Below are positions 1 to 11,612 of a stretch of DNA of 64,000 nt, piece by piece. The DNA is taken from the NCBI GenBank assembly GCA_018830485.1, contig JAHJRQ010000015.1, positions 186,001 through 250,000 of the forward strand. Reading direction: 5' to 3'. Origin of the DNA: Pseudomonadota bacterium. GTDB taxonomy: Bacteria; Desulfobacterota; Desulfobulbia; Desulfobulbales; Desulfurivibrionaceae. The notes beneath the pieces were generated by a model that searched no databases, was not told the origin of the DNA, and saw only the letters and a program-made list of their open reading frames with translations. How positions within the stretch are numbered: position 1 is the stretch's first letter; each line of letters begins with the position of its first letter. A program made the position numbers and the translations under genes.

Positions 1-688
1 GGCCGTCCGAACCAAGCTGCGCGCGGTATTGTGCGCATCGCTGGGGGTCGGAAAAAAACTCGGCCAGGGGCTGGCCGAGAACATCCTGCCGTTGGCCGAC
101 CCCGAGCAACTGCAGGCCGCTCTCGTTGATGTCGCAGATTTTGCCTTCCGCGTCGCAAAAATAGATCATATCCTTGGAGCCTTCGAAGAAACCGCGGAAT
201 TTCTCCTCGGACAACCGCAGGTCGCGGGTCTGCTCCTCCACCTGCTGCTCCAGGGTCTGATTCAACCGGGACAGATCCGCATGCGCCACTTTAAGCCGTT
301 CGTTGGCCAATTCCAGCGAGAGCGCATCGCCCTTGGCTCGTTCGATAAGCACCGCTGTGTTGTGGTAGTGGAGGGTGAGGATGGCCACCCCGCAGAGCGC
401 GATGGTGTTGAGCCCCCCGCTGTACGGATCGAGTTCGTCCCAGAGCTGCGGCATCCCGGCAAGCCTGAGAACATAGGGCAAAAGATGCCCCACGCCCCGG
501 GAAAGGGAAAACACCACCATGACCAGGGAAAACCAGAAAAAATACGCCCAGAGGATATTCTTGGGTTCAAGCTTTGTGAGCCGCCGGGCATGGGAAAACG
601 CAAAGAAGGCAAGAATGACCATCACGGCGGCGCCGAGATAATCCACCAGATAAACAGGAAACAGGGGCAGGACTATACTTTCTTCCAT
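1..688 (-). CDS. PAS-domain membrane sensor protein, probable histidine kinase N-terminus (partial, runs off left edge)
   Basis: The reading frame starts at ATG 688 and continues past base 1, so only about 229 N-terminal residues are present. The start shares one base with the stop of the upstream gene (TGATG), implying translational coupling. The N-terminus has roughly four hydrophobic segments (about residues 8-28, 44-64, 67-85 and 90-105). A charged coiled stretch (about 115-150, ending LNQTLEQQVEEQTRDLRLSE) follows, then a PAS fold starting EKFRGFFEGSKDMIYFCDAEG. This layout is usual for membrane-anchored sensor kinases, but the kinase core lies outside the window. With the membrane protein upstream and the divergent NtrC-type regulator at 1351 it probably forms one signalling locus. 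A PAS-GGDEF protein cannot be excluded. Confidence 0.75.
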   Translation of the reverse strand, partial: MEESIVLPLFPVYLVDYLGAAVMVILAFFAFSHARRLTKLEPKNILWAYFFWFSLVMVVFSLSRGVGHLLPYVLRLAGMPQLWDELDPYSGGLNTIALCGVAILTLHYHNTAVLIERAKGDALSLELANERLKVAHADLSRLNQTLEQQVEEQTRDLRLSEEKFRGFFEGSKDMIYFCDAEGKICDINESGLQLLGVGQRQDVLGQPLAEFFSDPQRCAQYRAQLGSDG

Positions 689-1164
689 CAGCCCCCCTGC
701 CCGTTTTCGCCCTGTCGCCGAGCTTCCACCTCCTCGCGGAAATCCCGCAGGGAGATAGTGAAAAACCAGAGGGCCGGAACGCAGAGCAGATGATCAAAAC
801 GGCCCATATAATAGAAGTAACTGAGCAGGGTGCGCGGCCCGGCAAAATAATCCTCCACCAGCCTTGCGCCGGAATCCCTGATATCGGGGTACATCTGGCC
901 GGCAAACCAGTGCACGAACAGATGGTCCAGATCCCAGAGGAGAAAAAACAGCAGGGAGAGCTTGAGTGATCGCCAGGAATACCCGGTATCCGGCGGTTTG
1001 GTGTGCAAAACATAGAGGAAGAGCAGCAAGGCCACCCCAAGCAGGAGATGGGCCATCAAATGGACCACCGGGCCTTCCGCCACCCCGTGCCCCTGCACCG
1101 CCCAAGCCGGGCAGCCCCACACAAACGGGAGAACACAACCGAGCAGAACACCGTATTTCTTCAT
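688..1164 (-). CDS. Small histidine-rich integral membrane protein, function unknown
   Basis: 158 residues. ATG 1164 is preferred over longer in-frame starts because a G-rich ribosome binding site precedes it and the protein then begins with a signal-peptide-like segment (MKKYGVLLGCVLPFVWG). About three further membrane segments follow (about residues 34-53, 68-87, 115-138). Histidines lie in or beside them: HLMAHLLLG, DLDHLFVHWF and GRFDHLLC. I do not recognise the family. Position-matched membrane histidines could bind heme or metal, or sit near a quinone site, which is inference only. It overlaps the sensor gene downstream by one base and is divergent from the sigma-54 regulator, so a sensory partner role is likely. 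Confidence 0.7.
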   Translation of the reverse strand: MKKYGVLLGCVLPFVWGCPAWAVQGHGVAEGPVVHLMAHLLLGVALLLFLYVLHTKPPDTGYSWRSLKLSLLFFLLWDLDHLFVHWFAGQMYPDIRDSGARLVEDYFAGPRTLLSYFYYMGRFDHLLCVPALWFFTISLRDFREEVEARRQGENGQGG

Positions 1165-1350
1165 CCGTTCCCCCCGCAATCCGCGCCGCAAAAATTGCGC
1201 CTTTTTCAGAAATAGCAGGTTGCCAGCAGGGACGCAAGCCATATCCGTGTTCGGATTCCTGCCAAGAAGATGTTGCTTGTTTTTCGGAAATGGTGCATCA
1301 ATGGGGAGTTATTGGAAAAAATCCGCCAACCGCCCGCGCTTTCCGGAGAC

Positions 1351-2790
1351 ATGTCCGTGACCTCTGATCAGCCTCTTTCTCCCTGCCCCGATGCGGATTT
1401 TTCCGCCTCGGTTCTCCTGGTCGACGATGACCGCGACATGCTTTCCATGCTGGAACGCCTCCTCCGCAAGAAATTCCGCTGCGAGGTGAAAACCGCGCCT
1501 TCCGCGGAGGCTGCCTGGCAGATCATCGCGGACTGGCGGCCGGACATGGTGCTGACCGATGTCAAGATGCCGGGGATGGACGGGCTGTCGTTCCTTGCCA
1601 AGATCAAGGACGCGTATCCGGCCATTGCCGTAATTATAATGACCGGCCACGGCACGGTGGAGTCGGCCATCGCCGCCCTGAAAAACGGGGCCTACGACTT
1701 TATCCAGAAACCCTTTGACAACGAGCACCTGCTCCACACCCTGCACCGCTGCCTGGAACGCCTCTGCCTGCTTGAAAAAAACCGGCGGCTTCAGAGCCGG
1801 CTCGCCGAGCAGGAAGCCTGCCCCGGCTTCATCGGCACCTCTCCGGCGATCAAGGAGGTCTCCGCACTGATCAGCAGGCTGGCCGATACCGATGTCACCG
1901 TGCTGATCCGGGGAGAATCCGGCACGGGCAAGGAGCTGGCCGCCCGCGCCCTGCATGGGTTGAGCGGCCGGCATTCGCGCCCGATGGTCACGGTGAACTG
2001 CCCGGCCCTGCCGGAGCAAATCCTGGAAAGCGAACTCTTCGGCTATGCCAGGGGCGCCTTTTCCGGGGCGACCCACGACAAAAAAGGACTGTTTCTCGAA
2101 GCCAACACCTCCACCATTCTGCTGGACGAAATCGGCGACCTCCCCATTGCCCTCCAGACCAAGCTGCTCCGGGTTCTCCAGGAAAAGGAGATCATGCCCC
2201 TGGGCCAGACCAAGACCATCCGGGTGGATGTCCGGGTGCTGGCCTCGACCAACCAGGATCTGGAGGAAAAAATCCGCCAGGGCCTTTTCCGTGAGGATCT
2301 TTTCTACCGCCTCAACGTGGTGACCATCACCATGCCGCCCCTCAGAAACCGACAGGAAGACATCCCTCCCCTGGCTCAGCATTTTCTCGCGACCTTTGCC
2401 GCGGAATACGACCGCCAGGGGTTGGTCTTTGCATCGGACGCCATCCCCACCCTGGTGAAACGAGCCTGGAACGGCAATGTCCGGGAACTGCAGAATGTGA
2501 TCAAACGGGCGGTGCTGCTTGCCGATGACACCCCCATCGATGCCCGGACGCTGACGGAACCCGGGGTGGGGCCTTCCGTCCACAGGCCAACGGCCGGGAA
2601 CCTGCACGGCTTGCCCTACAATCTCGCCAAACAGCAGATGGTGGAGGAGTTCTCCGCCGCTTACCTGACCGAGGCCCTGCAGCAGAACGGCGGCAATGTC
2701 ACGGCCGCGGCCCAGGCCAGCGGCATGAACCGCCAGGCCTTTCAGAAACTGCTGCACCGCTTTGGCCTCGTTGCCGACGCGTTCCGGTAA
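1351..2790 (+). CDS. Sigma-54-dependent response regulator, NtrC family
   Basis: 479 residues with the full NtrC architecture. The receiver domain has the acidic pocket VDDD at 24-27 and phospho-acceptor Asp70 in VLTDVKMPG. The AAA+ domain has Walker A GESGTGKE at about 188, the sigma-54 contact loop as GAFSGA at about 235 (GAFTGA variant) and Walker B LLDEIGD at about 257. A Fis-type helix-turn-helix ends the protein (NGGNVTAAAQASGMNRQAF). It activates transcription by RNA polymerase-sigma-54 when phosphorylated. An upstream in-frame ATG at 1270 exists, but ATG 1351 starts just ahead of the receiver fold and has GGAG close by. A sigma-54 promoter lies about 190 bp beyond its stop, in front of the tauE-molybdoenzyme operon, its probable target. 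Confidence 0.95.
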   Translation: MSVTSDQPLSPCPDADFSASVLLVDDDRDMLSMLERLLRKKFRCEVKTAPSAEAAWQIIADWRPDMVLTDVKMPGMDGLSFLAKIKDAYPAIAVIIMTGHGTVESAIAALKNGAYDFIQKPFDNEHLLHTLHRCLERLCLLEKNRRLQSRLAEQEACPGFIGTSPAIKEVSALISRLADTDVTVLIRGESGTGKELAARALHGLSGRHSRPMVTVNCPALPEQILESELFGYARGAFSGATHDKKGLFLEANTSTILLDEIGDLPIALQTKLLRVLQEKEIMPLGQTKTIRVDVRVLASTNQDLEEKIRQGLFREDLFYRLNVVTITMPPLRNRQEDIPPLAQHFLATFAAEYDRQGLVFASDAIPTLVKRAWNGNVRELQNVIKRAVLLADDTPIDARTLTEPGVGPSVHRPTAGNLHGLPYNLAKQQMVEEFSAAYLTEALQQNGGNVTAAAQASGMNRQAFQKLLHRFGLVADAFR

Positions 2791-2975: not shown

Positions 2976-2992
2976 TTGGCACTGTTATTGCT
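2976..2992 (+). promoter_or_regulatory. Sigma-54 (-24/-12) promoter
   Basis: TTGGCAC at 2976-2982, five bases, then TTGC at 2988-2991. This matches the TGGCAC-N5-TTGC consensus exactly, with correct GG/GC spacing. Transcription would start near 3003, leaving a leader of about 185 bases before the ATG at 3190. The activator is probably the NtrC-type regulator encoded just upstream. Confidence 0.85.
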
Positions 2993-3189
2993 TTGGCATA
3001 ATGCGAGGGAGAGATCTGCGACCCTCTCCGACATCACCCACTGGGCATCAGGCGCGAACGTTCTGCCCGACAACCGTCCGCGCCTTTCAACCTGTGAACA
3101 AGACAAAGGAGGTGCAACGGCACAAGAGGGGGGACTTTGGGAACGAGCCGTCTTTTAAGACATTTTATCTCAGACAGGAGGTGGATGGT

Positions 3190-4437
3190 ATGAAAGTCAA
3201 GTTCAGTGTGTTGCCGTTACTCGCCCTGGTGATGATGGCCTTGCCCATCATCCCGCAGGCACTGGCCCAGGAAACGGCCCCTGCCCCAACCATAACGCTC
3301 GATAAAACCTCGCTTGCCAACGGCGGCGAAATCACCGTCAGCGGCCAGGCCCCGGCTGGCGCCCAGGTGTATGTCGAGGTCTATGCCGCGGACAAAAAAG
3401 TGCGGGCCAACCGCTTCGACGGCAAAAAGGACCCAAAGACCGGCAAGATTCCCTACAAGTTTTACCTGACCCATGAGATGCCCGCCTTCTACAAGATTTT
3501 CGTACCCAAGGACATGCAGCCCGAGCTGGACACAGCCAAAGCTGCGGGCGGCGGCTGGAAGTATTCCGAGGTGCTGAAGAAAACCGGTGCCGACGCCGCA
3601 TACAGCGAACCAGCCAAGATCAAGATTGACAGCTATCAGGCCACCATCATGGCCAGCATCCTCGGTTCCCGGGGTAAACTGCTGGACGCCATGGACGAAA
3701 AGGCGACAAAAAGCGAATCCATGAAACTGGTGAAAGGCCGTTTCCGCTCGGTTAATAACCTGTTGGGCGCCAATGTCGAGACCACGCCCGAGGGCGTTTA
3801 CACCGCCAAAATGAAGCTGCGTTCTGGCCTCGCTCCAGGCAAGTATAACGTCATCGTCACCGCTGTCACCGCCCGGGCCATGGACGGCGACAAGGAAACG
3901 GTCAAGAAGGTCAAGAGCGAGGTAGCGAGCTTTGAGAACAAGCAAACGTTCCCCACCGTTTACCTCGGCAACGCAGGCACCAGCATCAACCTGATCTGGC
4001 CCTTCCTCCTGACCCTGGCCATCTCGATCTTCGGCGTACTCATGGGCGCGGGCGGCGGCTTCATCCTCAACCCCATCCTGGTCTCCATTTTCCCGGCCCT
4101 GCCCCACACCATCGTGGCAGGCACAGTCATGCCCACCGTGCTCTTTTCTCAGGGCTCCGGTATCTACAACTACTCAAAGATCAAGTTCATCAATTGGAAG
4201 CTCGGTATCGGCGTCGGCTGCGCCATGCTGGTGGGCGGCTTCATCGGCCCCAAGCTCACCGAATTGATCACCCTGGACCAGTTCAAGTTTGCCTTCGGCT
4301 GGATCCTGTTGGTCCTGGCCGGCTTGATGTACTGGCAGACCACCCCCGGCTATCTTGAGAAGAACAAGAAGGAGCAGGCCATCCTCAAGGAGTTCAAGAA
4401 GCGGGCGGAAGAAGCGGCGGCCAAAGGCAACTCATAA
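3190..4437 (+). CDS. TauE/SafE-type exporter subunit with large periplasmic N-terminal domain
   Basis: 415 residues. ATG 3190 is chosen because AGGAGGT precedes it and the protein then starts with a clear signal peptide (MKVKFSVLPLLALVMMALPI, cleavage near ALAQ-ET). Residues about 30-260 form a soluble, beta-rich extracytoplasmic domain (phrases such as LANGGEITVSGQAPAGAQVY suggest an Ig-like start). From about 265 come roughly four membrane helices with the family signature GVLMGAGGGFILNPILVS and HTIVAGTVMPTVLF, then a charged tail. This is only one of the two repeats normally found in a TauE/SafE permease of about 250 residues; the following gene supplies the other. The family exports sulfite, sulfoacetate or related anions. 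First gene after the sigma-54 promoter. Confidence 0.85.
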   Translation: MKVKFSVLPLLALVMMALPIIPQALAQETAPAPTITLDKTSLANGGEITVSGQAPAGAQVYVEVYAADKKVRANRFDGKKDPKTGKIPYKFYLTHEMPAFYKIFVPKDMQPELDTAKAAGGGWKYSEVLKKTGADAAYSEPAKIKIDSYQATIMASILGSRGKLLDAMDEKATKSESMKLVKGRFRSVNNLLGANVETTPEGVYTAKMKLRSGLAPGKYNVIVTAVTARAMDGDKETVKKVKSEVASFENKQTFPTVYLGNAGTSINLIWPFLLTLAISIFGVLMGAGGGFILNPILVSIFPALPHTIVAGTVMPTVLFSQGSGIYNYSKIKFINWKLGIGVGCAMLVGGFIGPKLTELITLDQFKFAFGWILLVLAGLMYWQTTPGYLEKNKKEQAILKEFKKRAEEAAAKGNS

Positions 4438-4458
4438 CACCATCAGGAGGAATCCGTT

Positions 4459-4848
4459 ATGAAAGTAGATTTCTGGGGTCATGAATTTGAAGTCAACATG
4501 TGGATCGGCTGCCTGGGCGGCTTTCTCATCGCCATTATGTCCTCGATGTTCGGTTTCGGCGGCGGCCCGTTCATGGTGCCGCTGATGACCGTCGCCCTTG
4601 GGCTGCCCATGTACATCGTGGTCGGCAGCTCGCTCTTGGCCATCTTTTTCAACACGGCCATGGGTACTGTCCGGCACATGCAGTTCGGCAACTTCGACCT
4701 GCTGCTCTTTCTGGCCATGTTTCCGGCGGCCCTGCTGGGCGGCTATTTCGGCCCGCAGATCGCCAAACGCTTAAGCCCGGTGGTGGTGAAACGTGTTGCC
4801 TGCGTGGGTCTGGTGCTGCTCGGCCTTAAGCTGCTGGGCCTGTATTAA
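4459..4848 (+). CDS. TauE/SafE-type exporter, second half-size subunit
   Basis: 129 residues, ATG 4459 with CAGGAGG upstream, 21 bases after the previous stop. About four membrane helices carry the second TauE repeat signature, MFGFGGGPFMVPLMTVAL followed by VVGSSLLAIFFNTAMGT. At half the normal permease length it is most simply the partner of the preceding protein, giving a two-gene version of a normally single-chain transporter. The stop, spacing and good ribosome binding site argue against a recent frameshift. Substrate is inferred to be a sulfur oxyanion from family and context. Confidence 0.85.
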   Translation: MKVDFWGHEFEVNMWIGCLGGFLIAIMSSMFGFGGGPFMVPLMTVALGLPMYIVVGSSLLAIFFNTAMGTVRHMQFGNFDLLLFLAMFPAALLGGYFGPQIAKRLSPVVVKRVACVGLVLLGLKLLGLY

Positions 4849-4864
4849 AAACCCATCCGTCCGG

Positions 4865-4911
4865 GTCCGGTTCCGCGGCGCGCTCCTCCCTTACTCGCCG
4901 CGGGGTCGGAC
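4865..4911 (+). promoter_or_regulatory. Intra-operon GC-rich hairpin
   Basis: CCGCGGCG at 4873-4880 pairs perfectly with 4896-4903. An outer five-base pairing (GTCCG at 4865-4869 with CGGAC at 4907-4911) extends it across an internal mismatch. No T-run follows, so it is more likely an RNA processing or stability element between the exporter and receiver genes than a terminator. Confidence 0.45.
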
Positions 4912-4974
4912 CTGGCTCCGGCCCGGGGCTACACCTTGGGCCAGCCACCCTGCGATCCGAAAAGAGGGGACAGT

Positions 4975-5334
4975 ATGGCTCACATTTTCGTCTTGGATGA
5001 TGTCCTGGATGCCGCCGTACTGACCCAGCGAATTCTGAGCAAAAAAGGGCACCAGGTGGAGATTTTCACCGAGGAACGGGAAGCTGTGCTGTATGCCAGG
5101 AAAAACCATGTGGATCTGGCCATCTTGGACATCAATCTGAAAAAAACCAACGGGATCAGTGTGCTGGAAGAACTCAAGCGCGCGGACCCGATGATCCGGG
5201 TCATCATGCTCACCGGATATCTGACCATTGAAACAGCCCGCCAGGCCCTGCGCCTTGGCGCGGCGGATTACTGCGTAAAGCCCGTGGACAAAAGCGAACT
5301 GGAACAGAAGGTCTCCGCCGCGCTGGCCAATTGA
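4975..5334 (+). CDS. Stand-alone response regulator receiver protein (CheY-like)
   Basis: 119 residues, entirely one receiver domain with no output domain. Acidic residues DD at 8-9, phospho-acceptor Asp52 in LAILDINLKK, conserved Thr in MLTGY and Lys in CVKPVDK are all present. ATG 4975 has GAGGGG at good spacing; a longer in-frame start at 4936 would add a non-conserved tail. It sits inside the sulfur operon between the exporter and the molybdoenzyme, so it may act by protein contact, as a phosphate sink, or in feedback on the upstream kinase. Those roles are inference. Confidence 0.85.
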   Translation: MAHIFVLDDVLDAAVLTQRILSKKGHQVEIFTEEREAVLYARKNHVDLAILDINLKKTNGISVLEELKRADPMIRVIMLTGYLTIETARQALRLGAADYCVKPVDKSELEQKVSAALAN

Positions 5335-5372
5335 GCCGCGAACGGCAAGCCACAGAAACAGGAGTCGTAATC

Positions 5373-7487
5373 ATGAAGAAATCAGTCTGGAGCATGTGCG
5401 GCATGTGCACCGTTCGCTGCCCCATCCGGGTCGAGGTCGAAGACAACACCGTGACCTGGCTCGAAGGCAACCAGCACATCCTGAAAGGCGCTCTCTGCGC
5501 CAAGGGGTCGGCCGGCCCTGCCCTGGTGGCCGACAAGGAGCGCCCCCAGCAGCCGCTGATCAGACGCGGCGGCCGGGGAGCAGGCCGCTGGGAAGCGGTG
5601 AGCTGGGAGTTCGCCCTCGACTATATAGCGGACAAGCTGAAAACCATCATCGACCGCCACGGACCGGAGGCGATCATGGCCAGCTCCAGGGGCGGCCCGT
5701 TCCAAGACCTGGTCAAGGCCTTTACCCATGCCCTGGGCTCCCCCAACTACACCGATCACGACAGCGCCTGCGGCCGGAATGTGCACCACGCCAGCATCTC
5801 GCTCTTCGGTTTGGGCCGCAAGGGGTTCATCTACGACATCAAAAACGCCAAGCATCTGGTGCTCTTCGGCCGCAACATCCTCGCCTCGCTTCGCCCGGCC
5901 GAGGTCAACCAGGTCATGGACATGCTGGACAAGGGCGGCAGGCTCACCTATGTGGATGTGCGCCAGACCCTGACCGGGATCAAGGCCACCAATTTTTTCC
6001 AGGTGCGGCCCGGCACGGATTACGCCCTGGCCCTGGCCCTGATCCACGAGATCATCAAGGCCGATGGTTACGACGCGGAGTTCGTGGAGCGCTACACCAC
6101 CGGTTTTGACGAACTGGCCTACTTCGTGGAAAACTATTCGGCGGAATGGGCAGCCAAGGAATGCGGCATCAAGGTCAAGGACATCCACGAACTGGTCGGC
6201 CAGCTCATCGCCGACCGGCCCAAGGTTGTCTTCCACCCGGGCTGGATGCTCTCCCGCTACAACGACTCCTTCTACGCCAGCCGCGCCTTGAACTGCCTCA
6301 ACGCCCTGATGGGCAACATCGAGGTCGAGGGCGGCCTTATCTTTGCCAAGGGCGCCGGGGACTGCGGCGGCAAAGGGCCGCGCAGCCTCACCGAGCTCTC
6401 GCCCAAACCCACCGCCAAACGAGCCGACGGGGTGGGGGACGTGTACAAACAGTTCGAGAAAGGCCCAGGGCTGTTCCATCTTTTCTACAAGGCCATGGCC
6501 ACGGCGCAACCGTATCCGATCAAGGGGATCATCTGCGTCCGCCACGATCCATTCTCCTGCTTCCCCGACCCGCAGGCGCAGAAGGAGGCGCTGGACAACT
6601 GCGACCTCATCGTCTCCATCGACACCCATTACAGCGAATTCGGCTGGTATGCCGACGTGATCCTGCCCGAGTCGACCTATCTGGAGCGCGACAGCATGAT
6701 CGCCCTGCAAAAGGGGATGAAGCCCAGAATGATCATGCGCAGCAAGGCCATCGAGACCCAAGCCGACACCCTCTGCCTTTGCACCATCATCAAGGGGCTC
6801 GCCACCCGGCTCGGGCTTGACCAGTATTTCCCCTTTAACACCGTGCGGGAATTATGGGAGTGGCAACTGGAACCCACCGGCTTTACCCTCGCCGACTTCG
6901 AGAAGAAAGGGTTTGTCGAATACGCGGACAAGCCGGTGCTCTACGACCGGGACAAGCTGGAAGGCAAGTTCAAGACCCCTTCGGGAAAGATAGAAATCAT
7001 CAGCCAGAAGCTCGATGAATGGGGGTTCCCCTCCTGGAAGCCCTACGAAAGTCCGGCAAAACCGCCGAAAGGCCAGTACCGCCTAGTGTTTGGCCGCTCG
7101 CCGCTGCACGCCCACAGCCACACCATCAACAATCCGCTGCTCAACGAGCTGATGCCGCAGAACACTCTGTGGATCAACACCAGGGAGGGGGGCAAGATGG
7201 GAATCGCCGAGGGGGATCTCGTCGATGTCATCTCCGGGGATGTCACCAGCGTGGTCATCGCCAAGCTGACCGATTTCATCCATCCCGAGGCGGTCTATAC
7301 CGTGCATGGGTTTGGCCGCCAGATTCCCTTGCAGACCAGGGCCTACCATGCGGGCATGAGCGACCAGAAGCTCATGAAGGGCCAGTTGCAGAACATGGAC
7401 CCCGTGGGCGGCGGACTCAACCTCTGCGAAACCTTCGTCGCGGTGCGCAAAAGCTCCAAAAATCATCAACGGAAGAGGGAACTATGA
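5373..7487 (+). CDS. Molybdopterin oxidoreductase catalytic subunit, polysulfide/thiosulfate reductase-like, cytoplasmic
   Basis: 704 residues; ATG 5373 with AGGAG upstream. Cys9, Cys12, Cys16 and Cys42 form the N-terminal [4Fe-4S] site (CGMCTVRCP...LCAKG). A molybdenum ligand is expected at Cys133 in DSACGRN. The rest shows the DMSO-reductase fold, including HSHTINNP and a C-terminal molydopterin dinucleotide-binding domain (TRAYHAGMSDQ). Length and motifs fit the PsrA/PhsA branch. Unlike periplasmic PsrA/PhsA there is no Tat (RR) signal; the iron-sulfur motif begins at residue 9, so the enzyme should be cytoplasmic. The partner ferredoxin overlaps by four bases and no membrane anchor gene follows. 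Substrate is unknown; a sulfur oxyanion or polysulfide is suggested by the exporter upstream. Confidence 0.88.
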   Translation: MKKSVWSMCGMCTVRCPIRVEVEDNTVTWLEGNQHILKGALCAKGSAGPALVADKERPQQPLIRRGGRGAGRWEAVSWEFALDYIADKLKTIIDRHGPEAIMASSRGGPFQDLVKAFTHALGSPNYTDHDSACGRNVHHASISLFGLGRKGFIYDIKNAKHLVLFGRNILASLRPAEVNQVMDMLDKGGRLTYVDVRQTLTGIKATNFFQVRPGTDYALALALIHEIIKADGYDAEFVERYTTGFDELAYFVENYSAEWAAKECGIKVKDIHELVGQLIADRPKVVFHPGWMLSRYNDSFYASRALNCLNALMGNIEVEGGLIFAKGAGDCGGKGPRSLTELSPKPTAKRADGVGDVYKQFEKGPGLFHLFYKAMATAQPYPIKGIICVRHDPFSCFPDPQAQKEALDNCDLIVSIDTHYSEFGWYADVILPESTYLERDSMIALQKGMKPRMIMRSKAIETQADTLCLCTIIKGLATRLGLDQYFPFNTVRELWEWQLEPTGFTLADFEKKGFVEYADKPVLYDRDKLEGKFKTPSGKIEIISQKLDEWGFPSWKPYESPAKPPKGQYRLVFGRSPLHAHSHTINNPLLNELMPQNTLWINTREGGKMGIAEGDLVDVISGDVTSVVIAKLTDFIHPEAVYTVHGFGRQIPLQTRAYHAGMSDQKLMKGQLQNMDPVGGGLNLCETFVAVRKSSKNHQRKREL

Positions 7488-7936
7488 ACACCTACACCCT
7501 GTATCTCAACAGCAAACGGTGCATAGGCTGTCACGGTTGCGTGGTCCATTGCAAGGCCAACAAGGGGTTGCCGGTGGGGCCTATCCTCTGCGAAATCAGC
7601 CATGAGCGGCTCAAGTCCGTGCGGGGGGTCCCGAAAACCGAGTTCAAGTTCCGCTCGTGCTACCACTGCGAGGACCCCTTCTGCGTCACCATCTGCCCCA
7701 CCGGGGCGATGAAAAAACGGGAAGACGGCATCGTCTACGTGGATGCGCCAACATGCATCGGCTGCATGGCCTGCGCCGGCGCCTGCCCCTGGGGCATCCC
7801 CCAGCATAATCCCGAGACCAACAAGGCGGTGAAATGCGATTACTGCATGGACCGTTTGGATGCGGGGCTGCAACCCGCCTGTGTAACCAAATGCACCACC
7901 CACGCCTTAAAGCTGATGACTATGAAAGAGATCTAA
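7484..7936 (+). CDS. Four-cluster ferredoxin-type electron transfer subunit (PsrB/PhsB/DmsB-like)
   Basis: 150 residues; its ATG overlaps the stop of the catalytic subunit (ATGA). The Cys clusters of a 4x[4Fe-4S] subunit are visible: CIGCHGCVVHC, CYHCEDPFCVTICPTGA, CIGCMACAGACPWG and CDYCMDRL...CVTKC. It should carry electrons between the molybdoenzyme and a cytoplasmic donor or acceptor. It lacks the C-terminal membrane helix of some homologues, and no PsrC/NrfD-type gene follows. Confidence 0.92.
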   Translation: MNTYTLYLNSKRCIGCHGCVVHCKANKGLPVGPILCEISHERLKSVRGVPKTEFKFRSCYHCEDPFCVTICPTGAMKKREDGIVYVDAPTCIGCMACAGACPWGIPQHNPETNKAVKCDYCMDRLDAGLQPACVTKCTTHALKLMTMKEI

Positions 7937-7937
7937 C

Positions 7938-7977
7938 AGGGGGATGGAAAAAGCCGTCCTGGCTTTTTCCAACCCCT
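7938..7977. terminator. Hairpin closing the sulfur operon
   Basis: GGAAAAAGCC at 7946-7955 pairs perfectly with 7961-7970 across the loop GTCCT. Flanking G-rich and C-rich bases extend the stem. It lies directly after the ferredoxin stop. No strong U-tract follows on plus, so termination may be partial. Confidence 0.55.
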
Positions 7978-8111: not shown

Positions 8112-8960
8112 ATGGAAACCGCGCAGACACAGATGGTATCTTTTGTTGAAAGGATTCTTCTCGCCACCGATTGCTCCCCGTTCAGCGAAGGCGCCGAACA
8201 GGAGGCTATTTTCTTTGCCCAGGCCTGCGGGGCGGTTTTGACAATCCTGCATGTCATTGAGGCCAATCCGGAATTTTCCACCATCGGCCATGAAACCGCA
8301 CTGGAGATGGAAGAATCGGCCAGGGACCATCTTGAAAAGATTCAGAGGATGGCAACAAACGAAGAAATCAAGGCGGAAATCGTGATCCGCCATTCCGACG
8401 ACCCGGTGGAAGTTATCAACGAGGAGGTCCTCACGAGAAACATAGACATCGTCATAACAGGGCGGAGGGGGAGGCGGGGCATCAAGAAAATCCTGATGGG
8501 AGTGGTGACGGAAAAGGTCGCCTCCATGGTCCCCTGCAAAACCCTCATTGTTCCCAAGGATTTTGTCATTGCAGGCGATGGCGTGCTGCTTGCCACCGAT
8601 GGCTCATCGTTCAGCGAAAATGCGGAAAAAGAAGCCATCAGCATGGTGTCGCGCTGCGACTATTTGAAATACATCTGTGTCGTGTCGGCAGCGGCCACCG
8701 CCGCAGAGCTTGATGAGGCCAAACAGCGCGTCCAGCGCATCACAACCCGGATACAGGCGGAAAACAAAAAAATCACCATCGAAACCGTGGCCGAGATCGG
8801 ATCGCCAAGTGACATGATCGTGCGCGAGGCACGGGAGAAAAAGGTCGATGTGATTATCATGGGCTCCCATGGCAGAACAGGCCTGCAACGGTTGCTGATG
8901 GGGAGCGTGTGCTCCGAGTTGATCGCCTCCGCGCCCTGTTCCGTGCTGATCACCAAATAA
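8112..8960 (+). CDS. Tandem universal stress protein (UspA family)
   Basis: 282 residues with two Usp domains, residues about 10-142 and 155-282. Each ends in a nucleotide-binding-type loop: GRRGRRGIKKILMGVV and MGSHGRTGLQRLLMGS. Start ATG 8112 follows AAAGGAG. It stands alone after the hairpin at 7938. Usp proteins are cytoplasmic stress or energy-status proteins that often bind ATP; the client is not evident here. Confidence 0.9.
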   Translation: METAQTQMVSFVERILLATDCSPFSEGAEQEAIFFAQACGAVLTILHVIEANPEFSTIGHETALEMEESARDHLEKIQRMATNEEIKAEIVIRHSDDPVEVINEEVLTRNIDIVITGRRGRRGIKKILMGVVTEKVASMVPCKTLIVPKDFVIAGDGVLLATDGSSFSENAEKEAISMVSRCDYLKYICVVSAAATAAELDEAKQRVQRITTRIQAENKKITIETVAEIGSPSDMIVREAREKKVDVIIMGSHGRTGLQRLLMGSVCSELIASAPCSVLITK

Positions 8961-9266: not shown

Positions 9267-11381
9267 TCAATCGGCGTGTTGCGTAGCCAGACCCTTCTGC
9301 ACCTCAGAAGGCACCGGCGCATATTCCTTGAACCGCCGCTTGAAACTGGCCCTCCCCTGGGTGATGGATTTCAGGGCGGTGGTGTACTTGTACTGCTCGG
9401 CCAGCGGGGTCAGGGCCTTGATCACCTGGTAGCGGCCCCGGGATTCCATGCCGCCGATGATCGACCGCCGCGTCTGGAGATCACCCATCACCTCGCCCAT
9501 CACCTCTTCCGGCACCATGATCTCCATCTCGTAGATGGGTTCGAGAATGAGCGGGTCCGCCTGTTGGAAGGCCTCCTTGAAGGCCTGGGCCCCGGCGATC
9601 TTAAACGAGATGTCGTTGGAGTCCACCGCGTGCATCTTGCCGTCGAAAACCATGACCCGCACATCCCGGACATGGGAGCCGGTCATGGGGCCTTCCTGCA
9701 TCTTCTCCATGACCCCCCGCTGGATGGAAGGCAGGTACTTGGCGTCGATGACCCCGCCCACGATGCAGTTGTAAAACACCAGCTTGCCGCCCCAGGGCAG
9801 GTCGATCTCCTCCTTGCCCCGCACGTTGAGATCGGTGGGGTCGGGCGCCCCCTCCACATGGGGCTCGATGCGCAGGTGCACCTCGGCGAACTGGCCCGAG
9901 CCGCCGGACTGCTTCTTGTGGCGGTACATGGCGGTGGCCGGCCTCTGGATCGTCTCCCGGTAGGGAATCTTGGGCTCCTCAAATTCCGTCTTGATCCCGT
10001 AGACATGCTCCAGACGCCAGCGGGCCACCTGCAGGTGCAGCTCGCCCTGGCCCCAGAGGATCAACTGCTTCACCTCCGAGGCAAACTCGGCCTTGAGGGT
10101 CTGGTCCTCGGTCTGCATGTCGCGCAGGGCCTCGCCCAGCTTCTCATCGTCCTTTTTCTCCTTGGCCACAATGGCCGAGCGGATGCGCGGCTCGGGGAAC
10201 TCGATGGGCGCCACCCCCACCCGTTTCTCCTTAGCGTGCAGGGTATGGTTGGTATTTGTGCCCTTCATCTTCAGGGTCGCGCCGATGTCGCCGGCGGAGA
10301 GCTTCTTCACCTGATTGCGCTCCTTGCCGTCCATGATGAACAACTGGGCTAGACGTTCGGTGTCCCCGGTCTGGTAGTTGACCAAATCCTGCCCTTCGCT
10401 CACCTCGCCGGAACAGACCTTGAAAAAAGTGATCTTGCCCAGATAGGGCTCCACCAGGGTCTTGAAAACAAAGAGCACCGGAGGCCCGGCCGGGTCGCAG
10501 GCAAGCTCCCCGCTGTCCAAGGTGTGCTCGGGCAGCATCTCCTGGGCCGTGGGCGCCACGTTGTCGATGAAGCCCATCATCCTGCCGCTGCCCATGTTCT
10601 GCTTGGCGGAGAGACAGAAGATCGGAAAGAGCGAACGGTTGCGCATTCCGATCTTGAGCCCCATGCGCATCTCATCCTCATCCAGGCTGCCCTTGTCGAA
10701 ATAGAGCTCCATCAAAGCTTCGTCGTTTTCCGCCGCCTTCTCCACCAACTCGTTATGGAGCTTGTCGGCTCGCTCCTTTTCGCTCTCCGGGATGGGGAGC
10801 TTCTCGGGTTTGCCGCCCTCGGGAGGGAAGCGGTACATGGTCATCTTGAGCAGATCGATGATGGCGTTGAAGCCCTGACCCTGGTTGACCGGGTACTGCA
10901 TGAGCACCGGTGCCGAGCCGAAGCGTTCCTGCAGGGAAGCCACCGCAGCCTCAAAGGCCGCCTTGGGATGATCCACCTGATTGATCGCAAAGATGGCGGG
11001 CTTAGCGAATCGCTCCACCGAGTTCCAGACCAGTTCGGTGCCCACCTCCACCCCGTACTGGGCGTTGATCAGCATGATGCAGGTGTCGGCCACCCGCAGG
11101 GCGGAGACGATCTCGCCCACAAAATCGTCCAGACCGGGGGTGTCGATGATGTTGATCTTGTAGTCCCGCCACTCGGTATGCAGGGAGGTGGCGTACACCG
11201 AGTTGCCGCGCTCCTGCTCGATCTGGTGATAATCGGAGATGGTGTTCTTGTCCTCGACCGTGCCGCGCCTCTTGGTGAGCCCCGCCTCGAAAACCATGGT
11301 CTCGGCCAGGGTTGTCTTGCCGGATTTGACACTGCCCAGCAACACGATGTTCTTGATGTGCTTGTCGTCATAGACTTTCAT
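9267..11381 (-). CDS. Elongation factor G-like GTPase (EF-G paralogue)
   Basis: 704 residues; ATG 11381 has AGAGGTGG upstream. The P-loop reads GSVKSGKTT (16-24) rather than the GHVDAGKTT of true EF-G. The switch II motif is DTPGLDDF, with Leu84 where translational GTPases carry the catalytic His. NQVD replaces NKxD as the guanine specificity motif. EF-G domains II-V follow (RETIQRPATAMYRHKKQSGGSG, and IMVPEEVMGEVMGDLQTRRS near the C-terminus). It belongs to the EF-G-like group that includes FusA2-type and ribosomal-protection-like paralogues. Role is unknown: ribosome recycling, stress translation or protection are possible. It is unlikely to be the housekeeping EF-G because it is monocistronic and away from rpsL-rpsG-tuf. 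Confidence 0.88.
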   Translation of the reverse strand: MKVYDDKHIKNIVLLGSVKSGKTTLAETMVFEAGLTKRRGTVEDKNTISDYHQIEQERGNSVYATSLHTEWRDYKINIIDTPGLDDFVGEIVSALRVADTCIMLINAQYGVEVGTELVWNSVERFAKPAIFAINQVDHPKAAFEAAVASLQERFGSAPVLMQYPVNQGQGFNAIIDLLKMTMYRFPPEGGKPEKLPIPESEKERADKLHNELVEKAAENDEALMELYFDKGSLDEDEMRMGLKIGMRNRSLFPIFCLSAKQNMGSGRMMGFIDNVAPTAQEMLPEHTLDSGELACDPAGPPVLFVFKTLVEPYLGKITFFKVCSGEVSEGQDLVNYQTGDTERLAQLFIMDGKERNQVKKLSAGDIGATLKMKGTNTNHTLHAKEKRVGVAPIEFPEPRIRSAIVAKEKKDDEKLGEALRDMQTEDQTLKAEFASEVKQLILWGQGELHLQVARWRLEHVYGIKTEFEEPKIPYRETIQRPATAMYRHKKQSGGSGQFAEVHLRIEPHVEGAPDPTDLNVRGKEEIDLPWGGKLVFYNCIVGGVIDAKYLPSIQRGVMEKMQEGPMTGSHVRDVRVMVFDGKMHAVDSNDISFKIAGAQAFKEAFQQADPLILEPIYEMEIMVPEEVMGEVMGDLQTRRSIIGGMESRGRYQVIKALTPLAEQYKYTTALKSITQGRASFKRRFKEYAPVPSEVQKGLATQHAD

Positions 11382-11612
11382 GCGGCGCCACCTCTCTTGG
11401 TCGATATGATTACCAGCCAGCCGACATGGACTGGGGGGGAATTGCATTAGGTTTGCATTAGATTCAGGATAGCAAAAAAGAGGGATGGTCAGCAGATTTT
11501 TTTCCCGGGGATGAACAATTTTTCACAGGCGTGGCAGAGGTTGGCGTTCCGCGCCGCATCATGGTATAGTGCGCTTTTCCCTGCACAACCCAACAAAAAT
11601 GGACTCGTAACA
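11382..11612. other. Intergenic region of divergent genes with a possible plus-strand promoter
   Basis: Between the EF-G-like gene and the AcuI-like gene. TTGGCG at 11541-11546 and TATAGT at 11565-11570 with 18-bp spacing form a candidate sigma-70 promoter for the plus-strand gene. No reading frame is supported. Confidence 0.35.

Follow-up and report, generated by a model that had tools for sequence, protein, structure and literature searches.

What would a member of the Desulfurivibrionaceae do with an operon that joins a TauE-type transporter, a stand-alone receiver and a cytoplasmic molybdoenzyme? The question is raised by the 64,000-nucleotide stretch analyzed here (the window, G000:C13:186001-250000), part of a 2.89 Mb genome in 26 contigs, in which a -24/-12 promoter is followed on the forward strand by tauN (3190..4437), tauC (4459..4848), a receiver gene (4975..5334), a gene for a PhsA/PsrA-like molybdoenzyme (5373..7487) and a gene for a PhsB/DmsB-like Fe-S subunit (7484..7936). 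A first-pass annotation, made from the sequence alone, described a sulfur operon with an exporter. Our reading, to which we give about an even chance, is that of a sigma-54 operon for the uptake of a sulfur oxyanion, most likely thiosulfate, and its reduction in the cytoplasm; import with thiosulfate-type reduction in the cytoplasm appears better supported than export. The genes present, the conservation of the promoter, the division of the transporter, the missing Tat signal and the association with dsrA are observations, whereas the substrate, the direction, the electron donor, the target of the receiver and the signal are inferred. The genes had been called tightly arranged, which is true of the gaps of 21 nt after tauN and 38 nt after the receiver gene and of the 4-nt ATGA overlap between the last two genes, but not of the 126 nt before the receiver. 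They had also been called no standard operon: no description was found by title and abstract in the published literature, most subscription papers being outside reach, but the operon is conserved, and part of its gene set recurs in a Desulfovibrio cluster already published. By tauN, the closest named genome is Desulfobulbaceae bacterium UBA2273 (96%), with Desulfurivibrio sp. S2_56 at 81%.

The molybdoenzyme (704 aa) has a C9/C12/C16/C42 cluster motif and C133 at the place of the Mo ligand. Its best solved relative is Thermus thermophilus 2vpw (deposited as thiosulfate reductase), matched over the full length at E 3e-110, and C133 aligns to Cys173 of the 2vpw chain, which we take to be the Mo-binding residue. 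C133 is conserved in 81 of 81 aligned homologues, as are the Fe-S cysteines. The enzyme has no signal peptide, the protein starting 8 residues ahead of the Fe-S motif, and a twin-arginine (Tat) motif was found in none of 82 homologues, so the earlier description of a Tat-less PhsA/PsrA-like enzyme stands; judged by its sequence, it is PhsA-like, short of a PhsA equivalog assignment. By eye, the Fe-S subunit shows four 4Fe-4S motifs with 16 Cys in all. Formate dehydrogenases have His after the Cys ligand, while the residue after the Mo-place Cys is Gly (C-G) in 50 of the 81 homologues and could be His in at most five. Formate dehydrogenase was rejected as an identity on this residue and on 2vpw being the closest solved relative. 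The enzyme family is broad, which would suit a system for a non-sulfur anion in sulfate reducers (formate, a nitrate-like anion or another oxyanion), but the lack of His after the Mo-place Cys speaks against it and we consider such a system highly improbable.

The transporter is divided between two genes, as the first-pass annotation had it. On the Pfam TauE profile of 237 positions, tauN covers 2-113 and tauC (129 aa) covers 125-237, and with 66.9 and 86.8 bits both repeats pass the gathering score of 32.6. About 230 residues of tauN, including a signal peptide (by eye), precede its membrane part; the structure model shows them as an Ig-like sandwich, predicted to be periplasmic, with a pLDDT of about 90. 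The membrane half of tauN is poorly predicted, and the model had no match in the PDB at E 0.001. The C-terminal tail of TauN is conserved. At the loci L266 and L267, a single Ig-TauE protein of 557-565 aa stands at the tauN/tauC place with the same neighbours. Because the fused protein of L266 aligns end to end with TauN (E 2e-11) and also with TauC (E 1e-15), we strongly infer that tauN and tauC together make one TauE transporter, an Ig-TauE protein divided over two genes. A single chain holding both repeats is confined to relatives. A frameshifted single TauE gene was rejected, because many genomes have tauN and tauC as two genes side by side. TauN and TauC would thus join as one TauE-type transporter with the Ig-like domain in the periplasm, through which the anion would be brought in.

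The module is real, conserved and widespread. In an even draw of 297 genomes of the phylum, which are not independent of one another, a tauN orthologue (E below 1e-80) occurs in 22 (at E 1e-10 the count rises to 36, through 14 weak TauE matches), the molybdoenzyme in 74 at E below 1e-180 (80 at 1e-100), and dsrA over its cut-off in 143. All 22 tauN genomes and 72 of the 74 molybdoenzyme genomes have dsrA, which agrees with the sulfur setting first proposed. Carriers come from many families, with Nitrospirota among the named tauN carriers; Desulfobulbus elongatus (L156) is a cultured one. Neighbourhoods were counted at tauN-selected loci, which are biased towards relatives of the window. The row tauN, tauC, receiver and molybdoenzyme was present at 19 of 120 loci (L070-L189, duplicates included). 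Where at least 7 kb was available on both sides (48 loci), automatic gene picking found tauC in 45; the molybdoenzyme is present in 24, or 27 if a NarJ-fused molybdoenzyme is included, and a kinase, receiver, NtrC-type or GAF-HisKA gene accompanies tauN in 28. The Desulfobulbus-type run (for example L150 and L153, with domains tested on representatives) consists of a membrane protein, kinase, receiver, enzyme, Fe-S and GAF-PAS-HisKA protein, then tauN, tauC, a phosphoenolpyruvate (PEP)-synthase-like protein, a dual-specificity phosphatase and an NtrC-type protein. L266 and L267 have the order membrane protein, kinase, NtrC, Rex-type, Ig-TauE, small membrane protein, enzyme and Fe-S. The same PhsA-like enzyme adjoins TauE genes in other lineages.

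Sigma-54 control had been proposed from the promoter and the gene before it. The NtrC-type activator (1351..2790, forward strand) has a receiver, an AAA+ domain and a Fis-type helix-turn-helix; 186 bases past it begins the perfect -24/-12 match TGGCACTGTTATTGCT (2977..2992, forward strand), about 200 bases ahead of tauN. The pattern TGGCACNNNNNTTGCW has 11 exact matches in its own genome and the reversed pattern 2, so that a single -24/-12 site by itself is weak evidence. The test on homologues, however, is strong. Of 98 loci (100 were examined, two were dropped for short upstream sequence, and a few contigs are present twice), 49 have a match to at least 9 of the 11 letters in the 420 nt before tauN, compared with 5.4% of 7606 control windows. 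Among sites of at least 10 letters in these 98 loci, the next gene is tauN 27 times and bears any other label at most three times. Ser may be able to replace Thr in the GAFTGA loop of such activators. The loop is GAFSGA in the window gene and throughout the 20 closest homologues listed (the window gene counted twice and some contigs twice), while more distant NtrC-type homologues carry GAFTGA. The phosphorylated NtrC-type protein would fire the -24/-12 promoter.

Genetic evidence on the direction of transport comes, for a gene set like this one, from Desulfovibrio alone, and it points to entry of an anion, possibly uptake of thiosulfate; the statements below from PMC4001038, PMC9723548, PMC3949148, PMC5840216 and PMC9751629 draw on parts of those papers. 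The nitrate cluster DVU0251-DVU0245 / Dde_0597-0605 comprises TauE, a conserved hypothetical protein, a PtxB-like protein, a kinase, a receiver, a PEP-synthase-like protein and a dual-specificity phosphatase; insertions in TauE or the receiver give nitrate resistance (fitness 11.44 and 9.14), and rex mutants are nitrate-resistant too (PMC4001038). The authors propose a leaky thiosulfate transporter and cite mild thiosulfate defects as unpublished data (PMC4001038); the wording "putative thiosulfate transporters" is repeated in PMC9723548. The TauE, kinase, receiver and PEP-synthase-like genes of L247, L249 and L255 match this set, with the phosphatase in L247 and L255; L249 also has DUF169, a small membrane protein, an NtrC-type gene and a phosphonate-binding protein. 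The TauE-molybdoenzyme operons of L266 and L267 include a gene for a Rex-type redox repressor (L266:4646-5350 and L267:12355-13077), which passes the cut-off of NCBIfam subfamily NF003995 and is preceded by -24/-12-like sites of 10 and 9 of 11 letters, respectively. Import is favoured over export because of this overlap with the nitrate cluster, namely the resistant mutants, the suggested leaky thiosulfate transporter, and the Rex-type gene together with the rex phenotype.

In the export alternative, the enzyme would produce sulfite, or some other anion, inside the cell, and the surplus would leave through TauN/TauC. Sulfite is known to be toxic, both halves of TauE pass the Pfam cut-off, and the family name TauE/SafE, on which the first-pass annotation based its claim, is in line with Cupriavidus TauE as described in PMC3949148; however, Desulfovibrio mutants that have lost the transporter of the comparable cluster are protected from nitrate, which suggests entry (PMC4001038), and dsr+ cells are able to consume sulfite. 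No sulfonate enzyme was noticed nearby by eye, no dedicated search having been made. Export seems unlikely. The same genetics bears on a non-sulfur anion: nitrate appears to enter via the related cluster (PMC4001038) and a NarJ-fused molybdoenzyme substitutes in some operons, but Desulfovibrio has no known energy use of nitrate according to PMC4001038, and the enzyme carriers are dsrA+ in 72 of 74 cases.

Several points weigh against uptake and reduction of thiosulfate. Although the loss of synteny that would have spoken against the module was not seen in close relatives, the molybdoenzyme is present in 20 of the 22 tauN genomes and absent from two, and a TauE-type gene lies within six genes of the enzyme in 6 of 20 enzyme-selected loci, some of them cut by contig ends. 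Against the PhsA equivalog, the enzyme reaches 503.5 bits, where the cut-off is 694. In Desulfolithobacter, PhsAB proteins, which lack subunit C, were found to be scarce under thiosulfate disproportionation (PMC9751629), Cupriavidus TauE is described as a sulfite exporter (PMC3949148), and the functions of TSUP proteins in sulfate reducers are not yet predictable from sequence (PMC5840216). The nitrate resistance could be indirect, the thiosulfate evidence comes second-hand through the unpublished data in PMC4001038, and the match to the nitrate cluster is one of annotation, length and gene order. The Desulfovibrio TauE also differs in being one chain, without an Ig domain as far as L247 and L249 show.

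The direction of the enzyme reaction is a separate matter. A tree of 74 molybdoenzyme homologues gives one family with varying partners: TauE or tauN, Nuo genes, or a flavoprotein that combines a NuoF C-terminal Fe-S domain with a GltD-like part. At L131:12175-19155, L086, L263, L265, L274, L275, L278 and L284, the genes for the PhsA-like enzyme and its Fe-S partner lie at the front of nuoABCDH or next to it, an arrangement that looks as if the pair had replaced the NADH input module of complex I. The flavoprotein stands beside the enzyme at L175:15546-17465 and similar loci in Nitrospirota and Desulfobacterota. A molybdoenzyme fused to a NarJ-like (nitrate-reductase-delta) chaperone replaces the PhsA-like enzyme at L159:5173-8091 (where its domains were tested) and also at L072, L114, L137 and L148. 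The lineages with Nuo or flavoprotein partners would suit an enzyme that oxidises, for example, sulfite, polysulfide or sulfane sulfur (disproportionation) and passes electrons to complex I or NAD(P), as would the Desulfolithobacter NuoB GF1_30520, which was found only under thiosulfate disproportionation and whose tag follows PhsAB-1 (GF1_30490/30500) (PMC9751629). However, the window operon, unlike these lineages, has no Nuo or NAD(P)-type flavoprotein partner among its genes, the closest relatives of the enzyme are reductases, and thiosulfate reduction driven by reverse electron flow through Nuo would fit equally well; oxidation is a rather improbable reading. In the reducing direction that we prefer, the PhsA-like enzyme and its four-cluster subunit would split thiosulfate into sulfite and sulfide, and the sulfite would pass to DsrAB.

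The lone receiver of the first-pass annotation is present in the operon as a protein of 119 aa with the Asp pair, phospho-Asp, Thr and Lys (by eye), and may tune either expression or transporter activity. Divergently upstream of the operon, and overlooked in the first-pass annotation, are a small membrane protein (688..1242, reverse strand, likely start 1164, no Pfam family), the histidine kinase with which it is paired (1..688, reverse strand; membrane N-terminus, PAS, HisKA and HATPase, the C-terminal part lying outside the window; G000:C13:185117-186688) and, downstream of the kinase and outside the window, a second stand-alone receiver. The small protein usually accompanies the kinase. Its 24 homologues share 13 invariant residues, five of them His (A22, Q24, H26, E30, G31, H35, H39, W64, W77, H85, D124, H125 and P130 of the trimmed protein), a pattern that could possibly form a metal, haem or quinone site; its structure model (pLDDT 79) had no PDB match at E 0.001. 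This membrane sensor pair of small His-rich protein and kinase would detect the signal. In Desulfobulbus-type operons, GAF-GAF-PAS-HisKA proteins without an ATPase domain are encoded just ahead of tauN (L166:7999-9672, with Pfam domains tested for this protein, and L153:8190-9857). Conceivably, though we doubt it, the TauE transporter is itself gated by a phosphorelay, made up of the receiver together with, in relatives, the PEP-synthase-like protein, the phosphatase and the ATPase-less GAF-PAS-HisKA protein. If so, entry of sulfur anions (and nitrate) would be switched by phosphorylation, beyond transcription alone.

On its 3' side, the operon is followed by an inverted repeat on the forward strand, GGAAAAAGCC/GGCTTTTTCC (7946-7955 / 7961-7970), a likely terminator after the fifth gene. 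The double universal-stress-protein gene beyond this hairpin (8112..8960, forward strand) was rejected as an operon member, since the hairpin precedes it and only close relatives keep the linkage. An open reading frame at 9267-11447 on the reverse strand resembles an EF-G-like translational GTPase (by eye). The genome has a second cluster, at about 3700-10740 of L260 (G000:C10:184001-202000), with a kinase, a stand-alone receiver, a dual-specificity phosphatase and a PEP-synthase-like gene; it resembles the Desulfovibrio nitrate cluster, and no TauE gene is labelled there.

How thiosulfate or sulfite enters sulfate reducers and disproportionators, and which enzyme splits thiosulfate in them, is unsettled, and the module provides a named candidate. 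It also suggests why a TauE gene and rex could have a common nitrate-resistance phenotype, which is of relevance to the nitrate treatment of oil-field souring.

Among known systems, PhsABC/PsrABC are similar in the catalytic subunit, which is nearest 2vpw and the PhsA model, in the PhsB/DmsB-type partner and in the Cys at the Mo place, but the window enzyme has no Tat signal and falls under the PhsA cut-off, and no membrane quinol subunit PhsC is found among the operon genes. For the SoeABC sulfite dehydrogenase, no SoeC-like membrane subunit gene was found in the operon; the SoeA sequence was not compared. The sulfur-disproportionation MOLY cluster also has molybdopterin A and B subunits and occurs in Desulfobacterota and Nitrospirota; it is predicted to be extracellular and has a TorD-type chaperone (PMC12998232), while the window operon has neither a chaperone gene nor a Tat motif, and membership was rejected on both counts. 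YTD membership was likewise rejected, yedE-tusA-dsrE being absent from the operon genes, to which the search was confined. The PhsAB "thiosulfate reductase-type protein" of Desulfolithobacter dissulfuricans, likened here by description and not by sequence, belongs to a dsr+ disproportionator, has no subunit C, and the locus tags of its PhsAB-1 lead on into those of Nuo, as at L131; it differs in that no TauE link is reported in the parts of PMC9751629 drawn on. TauE/SafE (TSUP) transporters have both repeats of tauN/tauC, but the window form is split in two genes, carries a large periplasmic Ig-like domain and shares its operon with a receiver. With the Desulfovibrio nitrate cluster, compared by annotation, length and order, the window operon has in common the TauE permease, the kinase and the 119-aa stand-alone receiver; the window operon lacks the PEP-synthase-like protein and the dual-specificity phosphatase, which many other tauN operons have, while the Desulfovibrio cluster as listed has no molybdoenzyme and includes a phosphonate-binding-type protein. 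The module is best read as serving the uptake and reduction of a sulfur anion under unusual signalling, with known parts in a new form: a TauE transporter divided in two, an enzyme of PhsA-like type and a regulatory set like that of the nitrate cluster.

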